Assembly: GCF_000092125.1 (NCBI RefSeq) | Contig: NC_014213.1 | Location: 186,001-250,000, forward strand | Direction of reading: 5' to 3' | From: Allomeiothermus silvanus DSM 9946 | Lineage (GTDB): Bacteria; Deinococcota; Deinococci; Deinococcales; Thermaceae | DNA length: 64,000 bases | Part shown: in pieces, positions 9,166 to 64,000 of the stretch | Position numbering within the stretch: the stretch's first letter is position 1 | How the letters are laid out: the number at the start of each line of letters is the position of its first letter | Program-made: the position numbers and the translations under genes | Notes under the pieces: model-generated | The model's database searches: none | What the model saw: the letters and a program-made list of their open reading frames with translations, nothing else | Told to the model about the DNA's origin: nothing

Positions 9166-10141
9166 GGGCTCCCCCTAGCCAGACGTCGAATCGCTCCTCG
9201 TCCCATTGGTTGAGCTCGAGCATCCGCACCCCCTTGGGTAGCTTCTGGGGGTCGGCTTTTACCTCGTAGTCGGCGAAGCGGCGGGGGGGTTTGCTTTCGT
9301 CGAGCCGCCGCACCGAGACCACCTGGCCCAGATCGAGCAGGCGGTGCGCCGGAGCGCAGCCCAGCATGGCCTGGCGCTTGTTCTGCTCGGCGTTGTGGGG
9401 GTCGGTACCCACATGCTGGAAGAGGAAGAGCCTTCGGGTGGCCATCAGGCCTTTGGAGGCGCTGCGGTCGTGGTCGTACATGTTCAACAGGGCCTCTACC
9501 AGAAGTTTCAGGTCGGCCGGGCTGAAGCCGGTGCCCTGGGCCAGGTGGGCGCTGACGAAGCCTTTGGCCAGGTACAGGCCATACGAAACCTGGCTCTTGC
9601 GGCCCATGGTGCGCAACTTGTCCTCGGGCTGAAGAGCCTCCCACTTGAGGTAGTCCTCGAGGGTTTTAGCGTTCTTGACGTCCTCGGCCACCGCGCCGCG
9701 GGTGATGCTGAACTCCGCGGGGAAGATGGGGTCGAGGCTTCGGGCAAAGGTGATCTGCACCGGCCCCCGCACCTGCCCGGCGTTGGCTCCGGTGCTCATC
9801 ACCGCGCCGAAGGTGCGCACATCGTAGAAGTGCGCGCACATCCACCGGCGCGCCGCCTCTACCTTGTCCTTGGTCTTGACTCCGGTAAAGCCGCCGGTTT
9901 TCTCGTGGGCCTCGAAGATGGGGCGGTTGAGGTTGGTGCCGTGCTGGACAAAGATGGGGGCTCCGGCGGCCTGGGCGTAGTTGCGGATGCGCCGCTTGAG
10001 GGCCACGTCGCTCACCAGGCCGTGGCCGTCCTCGGGGTCTACGCGGGGGGCGTTGCCCGAGTCGGGGTCGCCGTTGGGGTTACCGTCTTGCACGTCGAAA
10101 AACAGCAAAAACTCGTAGCGGTTTTGGATGGGCTGGGACAT
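9158..10141 (-). CDS. cas7c: Type I-C Cas7 (Csd2), Cascade backbone
   Basis: 327 residues. Opens with [27 protein letters not shown], the Cas7 signature of types I-B/I-C, followed by [21 protein letters not shown]. It polymerises along the crRNA spacer in Cascade. It follows cas8c after 11 bases and overlaps cmr1. Length is normal for Csd2. Confidence 0.94.
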
Positions 10142-10152
10142 CGGGGGCCTCC

Positions 10153-12018
10153 TTATTCCTGAAACAAACTGGGGGTTGTGGGGGCTTGGGTTTGAGGGGT
10201 TTCCTTCTTGCGGCTTTGGGCCAGTTGCTGGTAGTAGCCCAGGGCAAAAAGGCTTTGTTCTTCCAGGCTCAGGGTGCGGGGAAGGTTAGACCCCAGGGCG
10301 CTCCAAACCTGGGCCAGTTGGGTGTTGAACCAGTAGGCCAGGCCCGGTGCGTCCTTGGCCATCTTGGCCAGGTGGTGCTGCGAGAGCCGGGTCAGGCGGC
10401 CCAGCACCAGCGCAGGGGTGCTGCTGGCCGCGCCGTAGTAGCGCTGGACGACCCCGGCGTTGATCTCGGACTCGCTGGCGGCCTCCTGGATCTGGGCCAG
10501 GAGGCACATCAAGCGGCCGCAGTGGTAGGCCGGGCTGGGGTGCTGGGGGTCTAGGGCAGTGCTCATGCTTTCTCCTTTGCGGATGTGGTAGGCCTTCAAA
10601 AGCCCCATGCGGGCGTAGATGCGCCCCAGGGTGGCGGCATCGGGCTTTTGGGCCTGCAGGGCCTCGGAAAAGGCCCCGGTCATCACCTCGGCGGTGTGGG
10701 ACTCCATAATTTTGGCGATGGCGGCGTAAGGGATGGGCAGCCTGGGGTTCAGGGCGGCCCGCCACAGGGGCACTTGCAGGGTTTTGACGGGCTTGAGGTA
10801 GTCGTCCAGCTTTTGCTCGGGGGACTTGGGCCGCTGGAGGCTCAGGAACAAGCGGTTGAGCCCCGGCAGGCTGGCGCTCTGGTCGCCCGAGCGGCGCACG
10901 ATGGCCAAGTGCTCGAACCAGGTTGTTACGGCCTCCACAAAGTCTTCCAGCCTGCCGATTTGCCAGTCGCGCACCATCACCCGGCCCGAAGCCGGGCTCA
11001 TGGCAGCAGCGAAAAACCGGCTGTTGCGAATCTCCGGGGGGGCCTGGCCGGTTTTGAGGGCTTGCAGCACCCGGTGGGCGCGCTCTAAAGCCTGTAGCTC
11101 CTCGGCCTCGCCGCTGCTGGGGGCGAAGAGGTCGCGGAAGAAGTCGTCTTCCTCGGGAATCTCGCGGTCGTACCAGACCACCACCTTCATCTCGCCCAGG
11201 GTTTGGGCTTTCTCCAAGAGCGCGTCCAGCCCGGCCCGGTAGGCGGTAGCGGCCAGTTCGTCCACGGCGGCGTTCTCGCCCTGCGATAAGCCATAGGACT
11301 CGAAGGCCTCCTTGTCGTAGGTGACCAAAGCGTGGCCAAAGGCGCTCCCGCCCAGCCGGGTGACCTTGGGGTGGGTGGAAGCCGGAGTGACCAGCTCGCC
11401 GCTGGCGAACGAGGGCATCTGGCCCTGCGCGCCCGACCTGGGGAAGGCATGGGCCCTAAACTGCCGCCACCAGTCATGCCAGTCAGGGCAGTCCAGCACG
11501 CACCGGCCGTTCACGAAAAAAGAGATCTTGTCGGTGGATTTGAGCCTTTCTGGCCCTCTTTTCTGGGCTTGGGCCTCCAGCTTCTGCAAGAAAGCCTGCA
11601 CCTGCTGGGGGTCGGAAAGCGCCTGGGCGATGGGCTCGAGGAGCGGTACGTCGTTGGCCGCTAGCTGGATGAGCAGCCGGAAGGCGGCGTGCTTCTGGAG
11701 GTTTTTGGCGTGCTCCTCGGGCCTTCTGATATTGCCTGCGGCGTCCCGCTCGGGCAGGCCAAACACCACCGCGCAGGTGTCGGCCAGGAAGTGGGCGGCC
11801 TGCTCGACGGTGTGACCCTGCGCCCGCAAGTAGCCGGGCAGGCTCATCATGTCGGGCTGGGAGAGGTCGGGGGCGGTTTTGGCTTGGTCCAGCGGTATCA
11901 GCTCGGTCCACTGCCCCGCCGGGCTTACCCCCACCAGCCAGCGTATCTCTTTACTGGTAAAGCCGGGTTCGGTGCCCAGGCCTTTTAGCCGGGCGTAATC
12001 CACCAACTGCGCCAGCAT
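10153..12018 (-). CDS. cas8c: Type I-C Cas8c (Csd1), Cascade large subunit
   Basis: 621 residues. [22 protein letters not shown] at the start and the [41 protein letters not shown] and [20 protein letters not shown] blocks match Csd1. It recognises the PAM and nucleates the R-loop; in I-C systems an internal start in cas8c also makes the Cas11 small subunit, so none need be encoded separately. Start overlaps the cas5c stop by one base. Confidence 0.93.
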
Positions 12019-60099: not shown

Positions 60100-60711
60100 T
60101 CAATCCTCACCCGCCAGTGCAGCCAAAGCCCGTCCAGGTGGGTCTAGCTCCGCCTCCGGCCCGAACTCGGTGCTGTGCCACCGGGCGTAGCGCTCCTGAA
60201 AGCGGGGCAAGTCGAGCGTGAGGGCGTGCACGCGCTCGAGCAACCAACCCTTGAGCGGGCTAGCGGGTAGGGCTGCGAGGTGCTTGAGGCAGATGAAGCC
60301 CTGGCCCTGCCGCAAGGCCAGCCCAACCGTTTCGGCGGGCAACCGCGCCAGCACCTCGAGGTAACGCCGGGTAGTGGATTGCTGCACCCCACACGCCAGG
60401 CAAATCCGCGGGTCGTCGGCGGTTTCCAGGAGAGTCTCTAGCATTGCCTCACTCAACCGGGGCACCTCGGGGTGCCGTGCCTCGAGCGCTACCAGCTTGT
60501 GCCAGTGGCGGCTGCACAAGACCGCGCCGCTTACCATCGGAGGGTCTTGCTCGTAAAGGGCCTTCGGCCCCTGGCTAGCGCCGGTACTCAAGCGCAGCAA
60601 TCGTGTCTCCAGGTATTCCCGCGCGGCCCGGCGAGCGAGGATGCAGATCGGACAGCAGGGCTCGCGCAGCAGGGCCAATAGCCGCTCGGCGTCGGTGGGC
60701 GCCATGGTCAC
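60100..60711 (-). CDS. Cysteine-rich protein, DUF6062-like
   Basis: 203 residues with cysteine motifs REPCCPICILARRAAREYLE (about 17-36), VLCSRHWHKL, ICLACGVQQSTTRRYLEVL and FICLKHLAAL. The repeated CxxC / C-x-x-H arrangement suggests metal binding, as in DUF6062 proteins. Start GTG overlaps the upstream stop (GTGA) with GGAGGG ahead. It is the last gene of the hydrogenase-4-like operon and could be a maturation or assembly factor; that is inference. Confidence 0.6.
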   Translation of the reverse strand: MTMAPTDAERLLALLREPCCPICILARRAAREYLETRLLRLSTGASQGPKALYEQDPPMVSGAVLCSRHWHKLVALEARHPEVPRLSEAMLETLLETADDPRICLACGVQQSTTRRYLEVLARLPAETVGLALRQGQGFICLKHLAALPASPLKGWLLERVHALTLDLPRFQERYARWHSTEFGPEAELDPPGRALAALAGED

Positions 60712-61142
60712 GGTCGGGTCCCTCCCAGCTCGTCTGTGTCGCCTCCCGAGGCCAATTCGGCGGGGAACAGAGCCCGCGATACCCGCAGGCGCGCGCTTTC
60801 TGCCCGGATGTCGACCACCTCAACCCCTTCCAGATCCGCCGGCTCGAGCCACACCCGGTAGACCCCCTGTTCGCAGCGGTACGTCAGTTCCCAGCCCCCG
60901 TCCATCCCACCCACGCGGGAGACGAGCGACAACTGGGCACGCGAGCAGGAGGTTTCCAGATCCAGTACCCGGCGAGCCAGGCGGGCGAGGCCGGGTAGCG
61001 CCTGGCGCTCGGCCTGCGAGGGGTCACGCCGCAGCCGCATATAGCGCTTGACCCGCCCGGTCCGGGGGTTCAGCACCGGCTCGAGGACCCAGAAGTCCAC
61101 CCGTTGGCCATCTATCTCCAGGGTAGCGAAAGTTTTAGCCAT
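60708..61142 (-). CDS. Hypothetical protein of the hydrogenase-4-like operon
   Basis: 144 residues from the ATG at 61140-61142 (GGGGAGGAG ahead), overlapping the small-subunit gene. Mostly beta-rich (TFATLEIDGQRVDFWVLEPV, WELTYRCEQGVYRVWLEPA). I do not recognise it. Tight overlaps on both sides show co-translation with its neighbours. Confidence 0.6.
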   Translation of the reverse strand: MAKTFATLEIDGQRVDFWVLEPVLNPRTGRVKRYMRLRRDPSQAERQALPGLARLARRVLDLETSCSRAQLSLVSRVGGMDGGWELTYRCEQGVYRVWLEPADLEGVEVVDIRAESARLRVSRALFPAELASGGDTDELGGTRP

Positions 61143-62007
61143 GCTCCTCCCCTCGCTCCGCTCGGCGAGAAGACGCCTCCACCCCCGCTTCGCTGGATAC
61201 CACCTGGGTACGCTCCTCGTGCAAGCGCCCTCCAACCAGCACCTGCTGAGTCTGGCCGCTGAGCAGCAGCAGGCCGTGCAGAATAGAGGCTGGCCGGGCG
61301 GGACTGCCCGGCACGTAGACGTCTACCGGAACCACCTGGTCTACCCCCCCTACCACTGCGGCGCTTTCCGCGAAGATCTCGCCGCCGATGGCCTCGTTGC
61401 CCACCGCCACCACCCCTTTGGGCTCGGGTGTGGCCTGGTAGGTACGCCAGAGGGCCTCCCGCATGTTTTGGCTCACCGGTCCGGTCACCAGCAAGGCGTC
61501 GGCGTGGCGGGGCGAAGCCACCACACTGAAACCGAAACGGCTCATGTCGTGGAAGGGGTTGCCGGCCAGAGCCACCTCGGTGTCGTCCAGGCCGGTGTTG
61601 CCCGCGGAGACTTCGCGGAAGGCCAGGGTGGGCAGGTGGAGTTCGGCGCGGGTAGGGGGCGGAGGGGTGGGCTCGACAAAGCTTCCGGTGGTCAGGTCTA
61701 CTCGCTGCACGAGGTCTTCTCGCCGGGTCACCGCCACCTCGAGGGTACGCAACTCGCCTACCGCCTGCGGAATTGCCCGGAAACAGCGCCCGCAGAGGAC
61801 GCATTGGGCCAGGTTCACCCGGAACTCACCCCCTTCCTCGGCGAAGGCCGCGCTGGGGCAAAGTTCCAGGAGTTCACGCCTCACCGCTGGGGAAAGCCCC
61901 TCAGGCCGCAGCAGGGGCCAGCCAGGGGCCCAGGCCGGCAGCCTGAAGAGCTTCTCCAGGCTTCGGGTCAGGAGGCCGGTGCGCAAGGTCTGCCATAGGG
62001 AGGTCAT
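61135..62007 (-). CDS. Hydrogenase-4/complex I small-subunit homologue (HyfI/NuoB-like) without N2 cysteines
   Basis: 290 residues from the ATG at 62005-62007 (ATGA overlap with the upstream gene). An N-terminal ferredoxin-like part keeps only CVLCGRC (69-75). The rest aligns with HycG/NuoB: SRFGFSVVASPRHADALLVT, RTYQATPEPKGVVAVG, VPVDVYVPGSPARPASILHG. All four positions that bind cluster N2 are changed: the CxxC pair region reads GNTGLDDTE (136-144), the next Cys falls in GNEAIGG (203-209), and PGCP reads PGSP (233-236). It should not hold an N2 cluster. Membrane-facing peripheral arm subunit. Confidence 0.85.
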   Translation of the reverse strand: MTSLWQTLRTGLLTRSLEKLFRLPAWAPGWPLLRPEGLSPAVRRELLELCPSAAFAEEGGEFRVNLAQCVLCGRCFRAIPQAVGELRTLEVAVTRREDLVQRVDLTTGSFVEPTPPPPTRAELHLPTLAFREVSAGNTGLDDTEVALAGNPFHDMSRFGFSVVASPRHADALLVTGPVSQNMREALWRTYQATPEPKGVVAVGNEAIGGEIFAESAAVVGGVDQVVPVDVYVPGSPARPASILHGLLLLSGQTQQVLVGGRLHEERTQVVSSEAGVEASSRRAERGEEHG

Positions 62008-63584
62008 AGATCGCACCCCGCGTAGGAGAGGTCGAAGGATTTGTTGATGATGGGGAAGTCGGGCAGGCCCATCCCCCGCACGGCGAGCTCGAGGGCCCGC
62101 CAGTTCTTGAAGCTGGGGTCGACGATCTTGACCCGCTCTACCCGGTTCCCCCGTAGCCGCACCCAGTAGAAAAGTTCACCCCGCCCGGCCTCCACCCGGC
62201 TATAGGCCTCTGCTGTCGCAGGGACTGGGTCAACCCGGGGCGTAGTGGGCCCGTTGGCCACTTCTCCCTGGGGCAGCGCACCGAGGAAGCGGTCCAGGTA
62301 GACAAAGCCCTGCCGGAGCTCCTCCGCATAGACCTGAGCCCGGGCCAGCACGTCGCCCCCGGAGCGCACCACCGGGGTGAACGTCTGGTACAGCGCGTCG
62401 TCCTGGCGCAGGTCACGCCCCAGCCCACAGGCCCGGGCCGCCGGGCCCACCAGGCCCAGCCAGCGGGCCTGGGCCTGGGTGAGGGTGCCCACGTAGCGCA
62501 GGCGGTCGAGGACCATGGGGTGCTTGAGGGCCGCGGCGAGGTGGGTCTCGGCCTCGGCCGCCAGCTTGGCGAGCGCCCCCCGCACCTCGACCTGGGTTTC
62601 CGGGTCTATATCGAAGCCCACGCCCCCTACCGTGAGGGCGTTACGGCCGTAGCGATGTCCGGTCAGGCGCTCGAGCTGCCCCTGGAGCAGGGCCCGCACC
62701 TTGCCCACCTGGGTAGCGGCGTAGGCGTAGCCGATATCGGTGAAAAGCCCCGCGAGGTGGCCCAGGTGACCAAATAGGCGCTCTAGCTCGAGGAGCACCC
62801 GCCGGAGGCGATAGGCCCTGGGGGGCACCTCTACCCCCAAGGCGGCCTCCACCGCCTGGCAGAAGGCCAGGGCGTGGGCTACCGGCTCCCCGCCCGCCCG
62901 CTCCGCCAGCAAGAGGGCCTGCTCGAGGCTTTTCCCCTGAAAAAGCTGCTCTACCCCCCGGTGCTGGTAGCCCAAGCGAACCTCCAGGTGGAGAATCCTT
63001 TCCCCCAGCACGCTGAAGCGGAAGTGGCCGGGTTCGATAATCCCCGCGTGTACCGGGCCTACGGGCACCTCGTGCAGCCCTTCCACCCGGTCGAAGGGGT
63101 AAGGGAGACGGACGATCCCCTTGGGGACAGCCTGACGGCTGTACACCGAGTGGTGGTTGCGGAGGGGCTTGAGGGAGGGGTGACCCTCGGGTACCAGGCC
63201 ATGATCTTCCCACAGCTCCCGTTCGAACCAGTCCAGCGCTGGGAACTCCTCCGCCAGGCTGGGAAAGCTCCCCTGGGCTTCCACACGGAACTCCTGTAAT
63301 GAGAAAGCCTCCCCGGGGGCAGATTCCCTTGGGGACGGGCTGACGCCCGTGCGCCCGGAGGCAGATTCCCTTGGGGGCGGACTGGCCTCCGTGCGCCCGG
63401 TTGACGAAGTCCCACCCCGCTGCGCGGCGAAAGAAGCGTCTGCGCTAGCAGAGGATCCTTCGACCAGGTAACGCAGGTGGGGACGATCCCCTTCGGGACG
63501 GACCAGGCTTTGTGCACCGGGGGGCGCATCGTACCAAAGGGCCACGGGCCGACCCGATGCCAGCGCTTGCTTCAGAGCTTCCAC
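62004..63584 (-). CDS. Hydrogenase-4/complex I large-subunit homologue (HyfG/HycE, NuoC-NuoD-like) without Ni-Fe cysteines
   Basis: 526 residues. A NuoC-like N-terminal part (1-140) is interrupted by low-complexity insertions that coincide with REP-like DNA units; a NuoD-like part follows (GPVHAGIIEPGHFRFSVLGE, EVRLGYQHRGVEQLFQG). The Ni-ligand motif ERxCGxC reads ERAGGEP (228-234), and the protein ends INKSFDLSYAGCDL with no DPCxxC. It therefore cannot bind a Ni-Fe centre, like the energy-converting-hydrogenase-related (Ehr) proteins. Overlaps the preceding hyfF-like gene by 13 bases. Confidence 0.87.
   Translation of the reverse strand: MEALKQALASGRPVALWYDAPPGAQSLVRPEGDRPHLRYLVEGSSASADASFAAQRGGTSSTGRTEASPPPRESASGRTGVSPSPRESAPGEAFSLQEFRVEAQGSFPSLAEEFPALDWFERELWEDHGLVPEGHPSLKPLRNHHSVYSRQAVPKGIVRLPYPFDRVEGLHEVPVGPVHAGIIEPGHFRFSVLGERILHLEVRLGYQHRGVEQLFQGKSLEQALLLAERAGGEPVAHALAFCQAVEAALGVEVPPRAYRLRRVLLELERLFGHLGHLAGLFTDIGYAYAATQVGKVRALLQGQLERLTGHRYGRNALTVGGVGFDIDPETQVEVRGALAKLAAEAETHLAAALKHPMVLDRLRYVGTLTQAQARWLGLVGPAARACGLGRDLRQDDALYQTFTPVVRSGGDVLARAQVYAEELRQGFVYLDRFLGALPQGEVANGPTTPRVDPVPATAEAYSRVEAGRGELFYWVRLRGNRVERVKIVDPSFKNWRALELAVRGMGLPDFPIINKSFDLSYAGCDL
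63114..63520. repeat. Four REP-like palindromic units inside the large-subunit gene
   Basis: Units begin with GATCCCC or GATTCCC at 63114, 63322, 63364 and 63485. Two (63322 and 63364) are tandem with a 42-bp period and translate in frame as GRTEASPPPRESAS and GRTGVSPSPRESAP. The others give QAVPKGIVR and AQSLVRPEGDR. All lie within the open reading frame. A 22-bp repeat, 63424-63445, recurs at 63607-63628 in the next gene. Confidence 0.65.
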
Positions 63585-64000
63585 GAGAGCACCTCCCCGC
63601 CTATCAGCGGCGAAAGAAGCGTCTGCGCCAGCCGCTCCACCACCCCTGTCGGGGGAAAGAGGCCCAGAATCAAGGCCAGCGCCACCAGCACGGCGGGTAC
63701 CACCACCAGTGTACGGGGGCGAGGATGCTCCCTTGCGAGACCGGGACCCGGTACGCCGGAAGGCAGCCCCTCCCCGCTATGCGGCAAAAGGGGCCCCTCG
63801 CCGAAGGCCATGCGGGAGAGGGGCCACAAGAGCCCGGCGAAAGCCCCCACCAGCCCCAGCAGGTAGAGCCCCATCGAGAGGGGGCTCGAGCGGAAGAGGG
63901 CCTGGAACTCGGTGTAGAACAGCCCAAAAGGGGGCAGGCCGGCTAGGGACAGCCAGGAGAGGACCAAAAGCCCAGCGCTGGCGGGCCAGGCCCGGTACAC
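63572..64000 (-). CDS. Hydrogenase-4 component F / NuoN-type proton-pumping subunit, C-terminal part
   Basis: The last 142 residues of a polytopic protein whose start lies beyond the right edge. LVLSWLSLAGLPPFGLFYTEFQALF is the antiporter-like signature of HyfF/NuoN/NuoL; SMGLYLLGLVGAFAGLLWPL and TLVVVPAVLVALALILGLFPP are two more membrane segments. It overlaps the large-subunit gene, so the operon follows the hyf order F-G-I. Confidence 0.8.
   Translation of the reverse strand: MYRAWPASAGLLVLSWLSLAGLPPFGLFYTEFQALFRSSPLSMGLYLLGLVGAFAGLLWPLSRMAFGEGPLLPHSGEGLPSGVPGPGLAREHPRPRTLVVVPAVLVALALILGLFPPTGVVERLAQTLLSPLIGGEVLSWKL

Follow-up and report, generated by a model that had tools for sequence, protein, structure and literature searches.

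The Ehr complexes, the closest described relatives of the complex considered here, are defined as group 4 hydrogenase-like assemblies with antiporter-like subunits and without Ni-Fe ligands (PMC6349859, in the passage on this group). An operon of Allomeiothermus silvanus DSM 9946 that enters the right-hand end of the window (the whole 64,000-nucleotide stretch analysed, bases 186001-250000 of the 347,854-base replicon C2, in a genome of 3,721,669 bases with a chromosome of 3,249,394) resembles them in its group 4 hydrogenase-like large and small subunits, its antiporter-like subunits and its missing Ni-Fe ligands, but differs in having also lost the cysteines of cluster N2 and in keeping a single ferredoxin cluster site within a fused small subunit. 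N2 is not part of any Ehr definition known to us, and the loss therefore marks a variant.

Formate hydrogenlyase and hydrogenase-4 of Escherichia coli (Hyc, Hyf) share HycE/HycG/HyfB-C-E-F homology with the operon, which unlike them lacks Ni-Fe and N2 ligands, a separate HycF/HycB and a formate dehydrogenase, in a genome without HypD. P. furiosus MBH (6cfw) provides the best solved match of the window small subunit, although its MbhJ keeps the N2 ligands (GSCNGCDIE, GACPTGG, PGCPP). Respiratory complex I shows NuoB/C/D/H/L/M homology, whereas the operon, in contrast to the organism's own complex I (L081), has neither N2 nor an N-module (NuoEFG). The Rv0081-Rv0088 locus of M. tuberculosis, with an ArsR-type regulator beside a predicted formate hydrogenlyase-like complex, is likened here by description only. 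In T. scotoductus SA-01 the hyfB,C,E,F,G genes of a cluster from TSC_C14260 onward are reported to be preceded by arsR (PMC3235269), which gives the same arsR-hyf layout, ligand loss going unmentioned in the passage that describes it. The 'formate hydrogen lyase' genes associated with fluoride riboswitches (in the passages on them in PMC2864571 and PMC11139923) belong to the same superfamily, and two members are also N2-less, but the Thermaceae operon has another gene order, lacks the fluoride riboswitch RF01734 and forms a separate clade. A literature search, with subscription papers outside its reach, returned no earlier report of N2 loss in Ehr and no earlier link between fluoride and a complex without Ni-Fe ligands.

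Ligand positions in the large and small subunits

Both Ni-Fe cysteine pairs are absent from the large subunit and all four N2 cysteines from the small subunit, and both losses had been proposed in a first-pass annotation made from the sequence of the window. Below, G-numbers denote the genomes compared (G000 is the window genome) and L-numbers the extracted loci; L004 is the operon locus of the window genome, a window coordinate being the L004 coordinate plus 59000. The positions concerned are the following.

62004-63584 (L004:3004-4584), minus strand: large subunit, 526 amino acids, NuoC-like plus NuoD/HycE-like
62883-62903, minus strand: ERAGGEP, site of the first two Ni-Fe cysteines (RVCGIC in E. 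coli HycE/HyfG)
62007-62045, minus strand: NKSFDLSYAGCDL, site of the hydrogenase C-terminal DPCxxC ligands
61135-62007 (L004:2135-3007), minus strand: small subunit, 290 amino acids from the ATG at 62007, ferredoxin-like plus NuoB/HycG/MbhJ-like
61783-61860, minus strand: ferredoxin cysteines C50, C69, C72 and C75 (LCPS...CVLCGRC), one possible [4Fe-4S] site of cluster-II type
61594-61596, minus strand: T138, N2 ligand position 1 by alignment columns
61585-61587, minus strand: D141, N2 ligand position 2 by alignment columns
61393-61395, minus strand: E205, N2 ligand position 3, occupied by an acidic residue in all N2-less small subunits read
61303-61305, minus strand: S235, N2 ligand position 4 by alignment columns, PGSP here and PGDP in Thermus

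The large subunit matches Pfam Complex1_30kDa, NiFeSe_Hases and Complex1_49kDa, and its profile matches include HycE (7z0s_E, E 2.6e-42), MbhL (6cfw_L, E 2.1e-37) and NuoD. Besides ERAGGEP at the first ligand pair, its SFDLSYAG aligns with SLDPCYSC of E. coli HycE and HyfG. HypD, taken here as a marker of Ni-Fe maturation, was found in three of 37 genomes searched, but neither in the window genome nor in any of the 13 among the 37 that carry the operon. A working hydrogenase or formate hydrogenlyase is ruled out by the missing CxxC and DPCxxC ligands and the missing HypD.

The small subunit, first called as an open reading frame at 61135-62016 on the minus strand (the ATG at 62007 being the preferred start), matches Pfam Oxidored_q6/NuoB at residues 150-250, and its profile matches MbhJ (6cfw_J, E 2.7e-36) and HycG (7z0s_G), with HycF matching the N-terminal part weakly. 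Aligned to relatives that keep N2, it has T, D, E and S in place of the four cysteines. The organism's own complex I on the chromosome retains the N2 cysteines, so the cell can make an N2 cluster; this copy shows cysteine in three of the four N2 alignment columns because its first cysteine pair is a CC tandem shifted by one.

A ferredoxin-like part precedes the NuoB domain, with C50 in LCPS and C69-C72-C75 in CVLCGRC. In two-cluster ferredoxins an LCPS-type cysteine and a CxxCxxC trio together bind one cluster. The cysteines that would bind its partner are gone, namely three of the first motif and the last (8th) of the second; for comparison, the organism's own NuoI reads CIGCSLCAAICP and CIFCGLCEEACP. 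The small subunit could thus hold one [4Fe-4S] cluster, which we take to correspond to the one adjoining N2 in complex I, far from the quinone site. The earlier statement that no electron path remains by this route stands as to the Ni-Fe and N2 ligands, but had overlooked this conserved ferredoxin-type site, owing to which the peripheral arm, judged by its sequence, is not cofactor-free.

The surrounding fold and the antiporter-like subunits are retained, as also first suggested, and HyfC, HyfE and the antiporter-like HyfB and HyfF make up a complete membrane arm. With transmembrane helix (TM) numbers as we presume them to be, HyfB retains the TM5 Glu, TM7 Lys, TM8 Lys and TM12 Glu, and HyfF the TM5 Glu, TM7 Lys and TM12 Glu, its TM8 residue being Asn as in E. 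coli HyfF. Both subunits thus carry the Mrp-type marker (antiporter-like subunits with TM5 Glu/TM7 Lys). A loop of HyfC reads THLELTMIHEA as against AEAEQEL in E. coli and complex I, and has the same form in Ehr relatives that keep N2.

Conservation of the ligand loss

A small-subunit profile was run over 111 Deinococcota genomes, matches above 300 bits being counted as full-type. Full-type small subunits occurred in 22 genomes (G000, 20 others of the Thermaceae/G102 clade, and G037), and in all 22 the N2 cysteines were missing from all four positions while the four ferredoxin cysteines were present. At the third N2 position the 21 ArsR-type small subunits have Glu, while G037 and the M. branderi plasmid protein have Asp. 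Gene order arsR-hyfB-C-E-F-large subunit-small subunit is kept in the ArsR-type loci and in G102, and differs in the G037 locus (L036); statements on gene order and neighbours here and below cover the loci printed in our neighbourhood listing, in which the tables of L032-L035 are partly included, the large and small subunits of these four loci having been read separately. Against four relatives, the ratio of nonsynonymous to synonymous differences (pN/pS) was 0.24-0.32 for the small subunit, 0.27-0.32 for the large subunit and 0.21-0.30 for hyfB. The alignment check called for in the first-pass annotation thus finds the loss inherited by the whole clade, and a local pseudogene is ruled out by the occurrence of the loss in 22/22 genomes and by pN/pS of about 0.3.

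Decay of the operon could be read from the transposon remnant that separates arsR from hyfB here and from an arsR-small subunit fusion in the Thermus genome G075, but throughout the family the frames are open, the gene order is conserved and pN/pS is near 0.3, indicative of purifying selection, which makes decay very improbable. At the G075 locus (L098, C19) the start of arsR runs directly into the small subunit, as would result from deletion of the operon between them.

Beyond Deinococcota the picture comes from the plasmid collection alone, where tblastn matched 208 records with the small subunit and 240 with the large subunit. A scan of genome contigs, with patterns suited to Thermaceae, returned nine Thermaceae and three archaeal loci. 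A comparison set of 25 complexes was drawn from the plasmid matches, the Deinococcota loci and E. coli. Outside its N2-less rows, all ten Ehr small subunits have the four N2 cysteines, as do E. coli Hyc and Hyf, and none of its Ehr large subunits has the Ni-Fe cysteine pairs, those of M. branderi and Rhizobium showing a single cysteine in or close to one of the positions. Variovorax sp. PBL-E5 plasmid 3 (L055, L089) carries two different Ehr operons within about 20 kb.

A sister branch led by fluoride riboswitches

Weinberg et al. (2010) listed formate hydrogen lyase genes behind the crcB motif (PMC2864571), and in the relevant passages of PMC11139923 fluoride stress acidifies the cytoplasm, Na+/H+ antiporters are the commonest riboswitch-linked genes after exporters, and the linked 'formate hydrogen lyase' is taken as a fermentation enzyme. 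In our loci RF01734 lies just upstream of hyfC in G037 (L036:12355-12415, minus strand), Burkholderia (L056, L061) and Caballeronia (L058), and on the M. branderi plasmid (L054) upstream of a NUDIX gene followed by hyfC, so that the riboswitch precedes the operon in all five members of one clade with 100/100 support. The gene order of this branch is hyfC-E-F-large subunit-small subunit-hyfB, and DUF190 genes, inorganic diphosphatase, enolase, CrcB and a chloride-channel family gene stand near at least one of its loci. In two of the five complexes (G037 and M. branderi) N2 is gone, and so are those ferredoxin ligands that the window protein lacks; in the other three N2 is present, together with two ferredoxin motifs. 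Of the large subunits in this branch, the four that were read all lack the Ni-Fe ligand pairs, which speaks against the fermentation-enzyme reading.

A tree of 25 rows was computed from five concatenated proteins after removal of the N2 columns. It places the fluoride and Thermaceae complexes in two distinct clades, each at 100/100. Constraining all 12 N2-less rows to one clade cost 167 log-likelihood units, and a single origin of the N2-less small subunits is rejected by the approximately unbiased (AU) test (p-AU 0.0002); G037 and M. branderi as one clade were not rejected (p 0.47). N2 was thus lost at least twice, the exact count being limited by the long branches (L055, L036, L054, L057 and the complex I outgroup) and the uneven letter make-up that the program flagged. 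To judge from the ligands, the parallel losses ended in the same cofactor state.

In G037 the N2-less complex sits in an island between DUF190 genes and an MFS gene, and EtfAB and two acyl-CoA dehydrogenase-like genes adjoin this island (L036:13160-17183), the riboswitch lying between the Etf side and the operon. These genes, together with the four ferredoxin cysteines invariant in 22/22 Deinococcota genomes (including G037) and in M. branderi, would fit a complex that is still a redox pump, in which electrons would enter the retained ferredoxin cluster and take a shorter or re-routed path to quinone or another acceptor, a partner replacing N2. We regard this as unlikely: the N2 and Ni-Fe ligands are all gone, as are the first three and the 8th ferredoxin cysteines, the remaining cluster, to judge by complex I, is presumably too distant from the quinone site for electrons to cross quickly, no conserved partner appears in the Thermaceae loci, and in G037 the riboswitch itself parts the Etf genes from the operon.

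A fluoride-stress complex in Thermaceae as well, with ArsR in place of the riboswitch, would accord with a sister branch that is riboswitch-led in 5/5 loci and includes N2-less members. However, RF01734 was found in none of the 17 ArsR-type loci searched (including L004, L026-L032, L039 and L083), which rules out direct riboswitch control there, and the organism's own fluoride island is chromosomal and separate, leaving this extension to Thermaceae a decidedly doubtful proposition. The riboswitch was likewise absent from nine other plasmid Ehr loci searched (L055, L057, L059, L060, L085-L089). The single RF01734 of the window genome, on the chromosome and apart from the operon, belongs to an island (L082, G000:C1:2803000-2815000) in which it precedes a Na+/H+ exchanger-family gene, with a universal-stress-like gene, a CrcB-like gene (by look), DUF190 and MFS among the genes behind.

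The ArsR regulator and its relatives

The ArsR of the operon has no cysteine. Its relatives matched 1330 plasmid records, and among the 20 relatives listed the regions of six were viewed. SulP genes stood near ArsR relatives in three of the six (L074, L075, L077), some on actinobacterial plasmids, and carbonic anhydrase in two (L074, L076). In L075 SulP is headed by one ArsR relative, and a different one stands before an Ehr small-subunit gene; L073 has a P-type ATPase near the ArsR relative, and L078 shows no SulP, carbonic anhydrase, Ehr gene or P-type ATPase. As a clue to function this neighbourhood is a lead only. It would suit an uptake module for inorganic carbon or an anion, like the CO2-uptake forms of cyanobacterial NDH-1 or the DAB pumps, L075 combining SulP with an Ehr gene, but inspection by eye of the listed Thermaceae loci showed neither carbonic anhydrase nor SulP among the conserved neighbours, and DabA (PF10070) is absent from the window genome and was found in one of 41 genomes searched (G039). 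The DAB-like form is weak for want of its DabA partner, and carbon or anion uptake in general seems to us improbable. Fluoride or pH stress is the better contextual lead, since a related branch is led by fluoride riboswitches.

Weighing an ion-transport role

Taken together, we give about equal credence to, and reservation about, the reading that this conserved Ehr-type complex, in which the Ni-Fe site and N2 were lost by inheritance, transports ions without the N2 route. Ion movement by another driver, as first proposed, is kept as the best reading since the antiporter-like subunits and pump residues are retained, and it is also the simplest because selection is kept and the same state was reached repeatedly. 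With Ni-Fe and N2 absent, no known acceptor chain leads from the peripheral arm to the quinone pocket. A role in pH or ion homeostasis is backed by the fluoride branch by context only, a context that includes the riboswitch-led Na+/H+ exchanger in the window genome's own fluoride island.

Several observations weigh against this reading. The four ferredoxin cysteines, present in every member, argue for some remaining redox function, and since most Ehr relatives sampled keep N2, the general mechanism of Ehr could be redox. The fluoride context is that of the sister branch, given the absence of the riboswitch from the ArsR-type loci. The G075 locus has lost the central genes of the operon, so there at least the complex can be dispensed with, and in the window genome operon expression may be altered, since a transposase remnant parts arsR and hyfB in both copies of the operon. 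AlphaFold2 models of the small subunit (mean predicted local distance difference test score, pLDDT, 37.8 from 10 sequences) and of the large subunit (pLDDT 55.5 from five sequences) are too weak for site geometry.

If ions are moved in this way, HyfB and HyfF would carry H+ and/or a monovalent cation without electron delivery via N2, most simply as a secondary (Mrp-like) antiporter serving pH or ion homeostasis. The former Ni-Fe/quinone pocket might act as a lid or coupling element, with the protonatable carboxylate E205 at the place of N2, and the remaining [4Fe-4S] cluster might be structural or a redox or oxygen gate. Induction would follow when some signal releases the ArsR-family repressor.

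Operon layout, flanking genes and repeats

Reading the operon rightward, as the first-pass annotation advised, hyfF was found complete beyond the window edge, followed by hyfE, hyfC, hyfB, the transposon remnant and arsR. The minus-strand order from right to left is thus arsR, transposase remnant (on the other strand), hyfB, hyfC, hyfE, hyfF, large subunit and small subunit, the stop of the large subunit overlapping the start codon of the small subunit. The remaining features are the following.

L004:10468-10806, minus strand: arsR, head of the operon
L004 about 9424-10425 (window coordinate about 68424-69425), opposite strand to the operon: transposase remnant between arsR and hyfB
L004:7502-9310, minus strand: hyfB
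L004:6648-7505, minus strand: hyfC (NuoH-like)
L004:6025-6609, minus strand: hyfE (NuoK-like)
63572-64000, minus strand: hyfF, antiporter-like subunit, continuing beyond the window edge (whole gene L004:4572-6023)
63291-63518, minus strand: NuoC-like stretch of the large subunit, the part most divergent from relatives, carrying short dispersed repeats of the window genome
60708-61142, minus strand: open reading frame of 144 amino acids (175 from an upstream start), overlapping the small-subunit stop
60100-60711, minus strand: cysteine-rich open reading frame of 203 amino acids

The remnant is a broken transposase, TnpB-like by eye, and in relatives arsR and hyfB overlap directly. The two small open reading frames that follow the small subunit, at first counted with the operon, lie outside its conserved part. 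Neither gives a Pfam match. In a best-hit screen of the loci shown, relatives of the 203-amino-acid protein adjoin the operon in just two, L026 and L028 (from C. roseus and from G001, a genome of the same genus), and no other locus has a relative of the 144-amino-acid protein.

A second copy of the operon, 99.9% identical and also containing the transposase remnant, is present on the same replicon. It belongs to a 40.3-kb inverted repeat (C2:229227-269494 against C2:1-40272, covering window 43227-64000 and beyond), the copies of which are 99.96% identical, with three mismatches and 12 gaps. The repeat runs from base 1 of the replicon to an insertion sequence-like repeat, no continuation being found across the ends of the replicon record, and this doubling of the operon may be either genuine or an assembly effect. 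A 14.5-kb stretch around the operon shows eight differences between copies, five of them inside the transposase remnant. Short dispersed repeats (about 20-40 bases) lie in frame within the large- and small-subunit genes (63291-63518, 63096-63164 and 61135-61230) and recur elsewhere on the plasmid; in the same-genus relative (L028) the large subunit contains a repeated peptide.

Implications

The central question in complex I is how antiporter-like subunits far away are driven by electron transfer at N2 and quinone. A natural complex with a membrane arm, a coupling subunit and NuoB and NuoD folds but no N2 or Ni-Fe would part ion movement from redox chemistry, the protein moreover being thermostable. 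Such a complex would also mean that the fluoride-riboswitch 'formate hydrogen lyase' has been misread as a fermentation enzyme (in the passage on it in PMC11139923), four large subunits having no Ni-Fe pairs. More broadly, and with somewhat less confidence than we place in the transport reading of the Thermaceae complex, complex I-type machines may at least twice have given up the N2 route and become transporters that are not electron-driven, with the ferredoxin cluster as structure or gate and an acidic N2 pocket; the riboswitch-controlled 'formate hydrogenlyase' would then be such a pH or ion transporter and not an enzyme of fermentation. That the Thermus-group complex and a fluoride-stress version came separately to the same loss suggests that ion transport by such machines might not need the customary flow of electrons.

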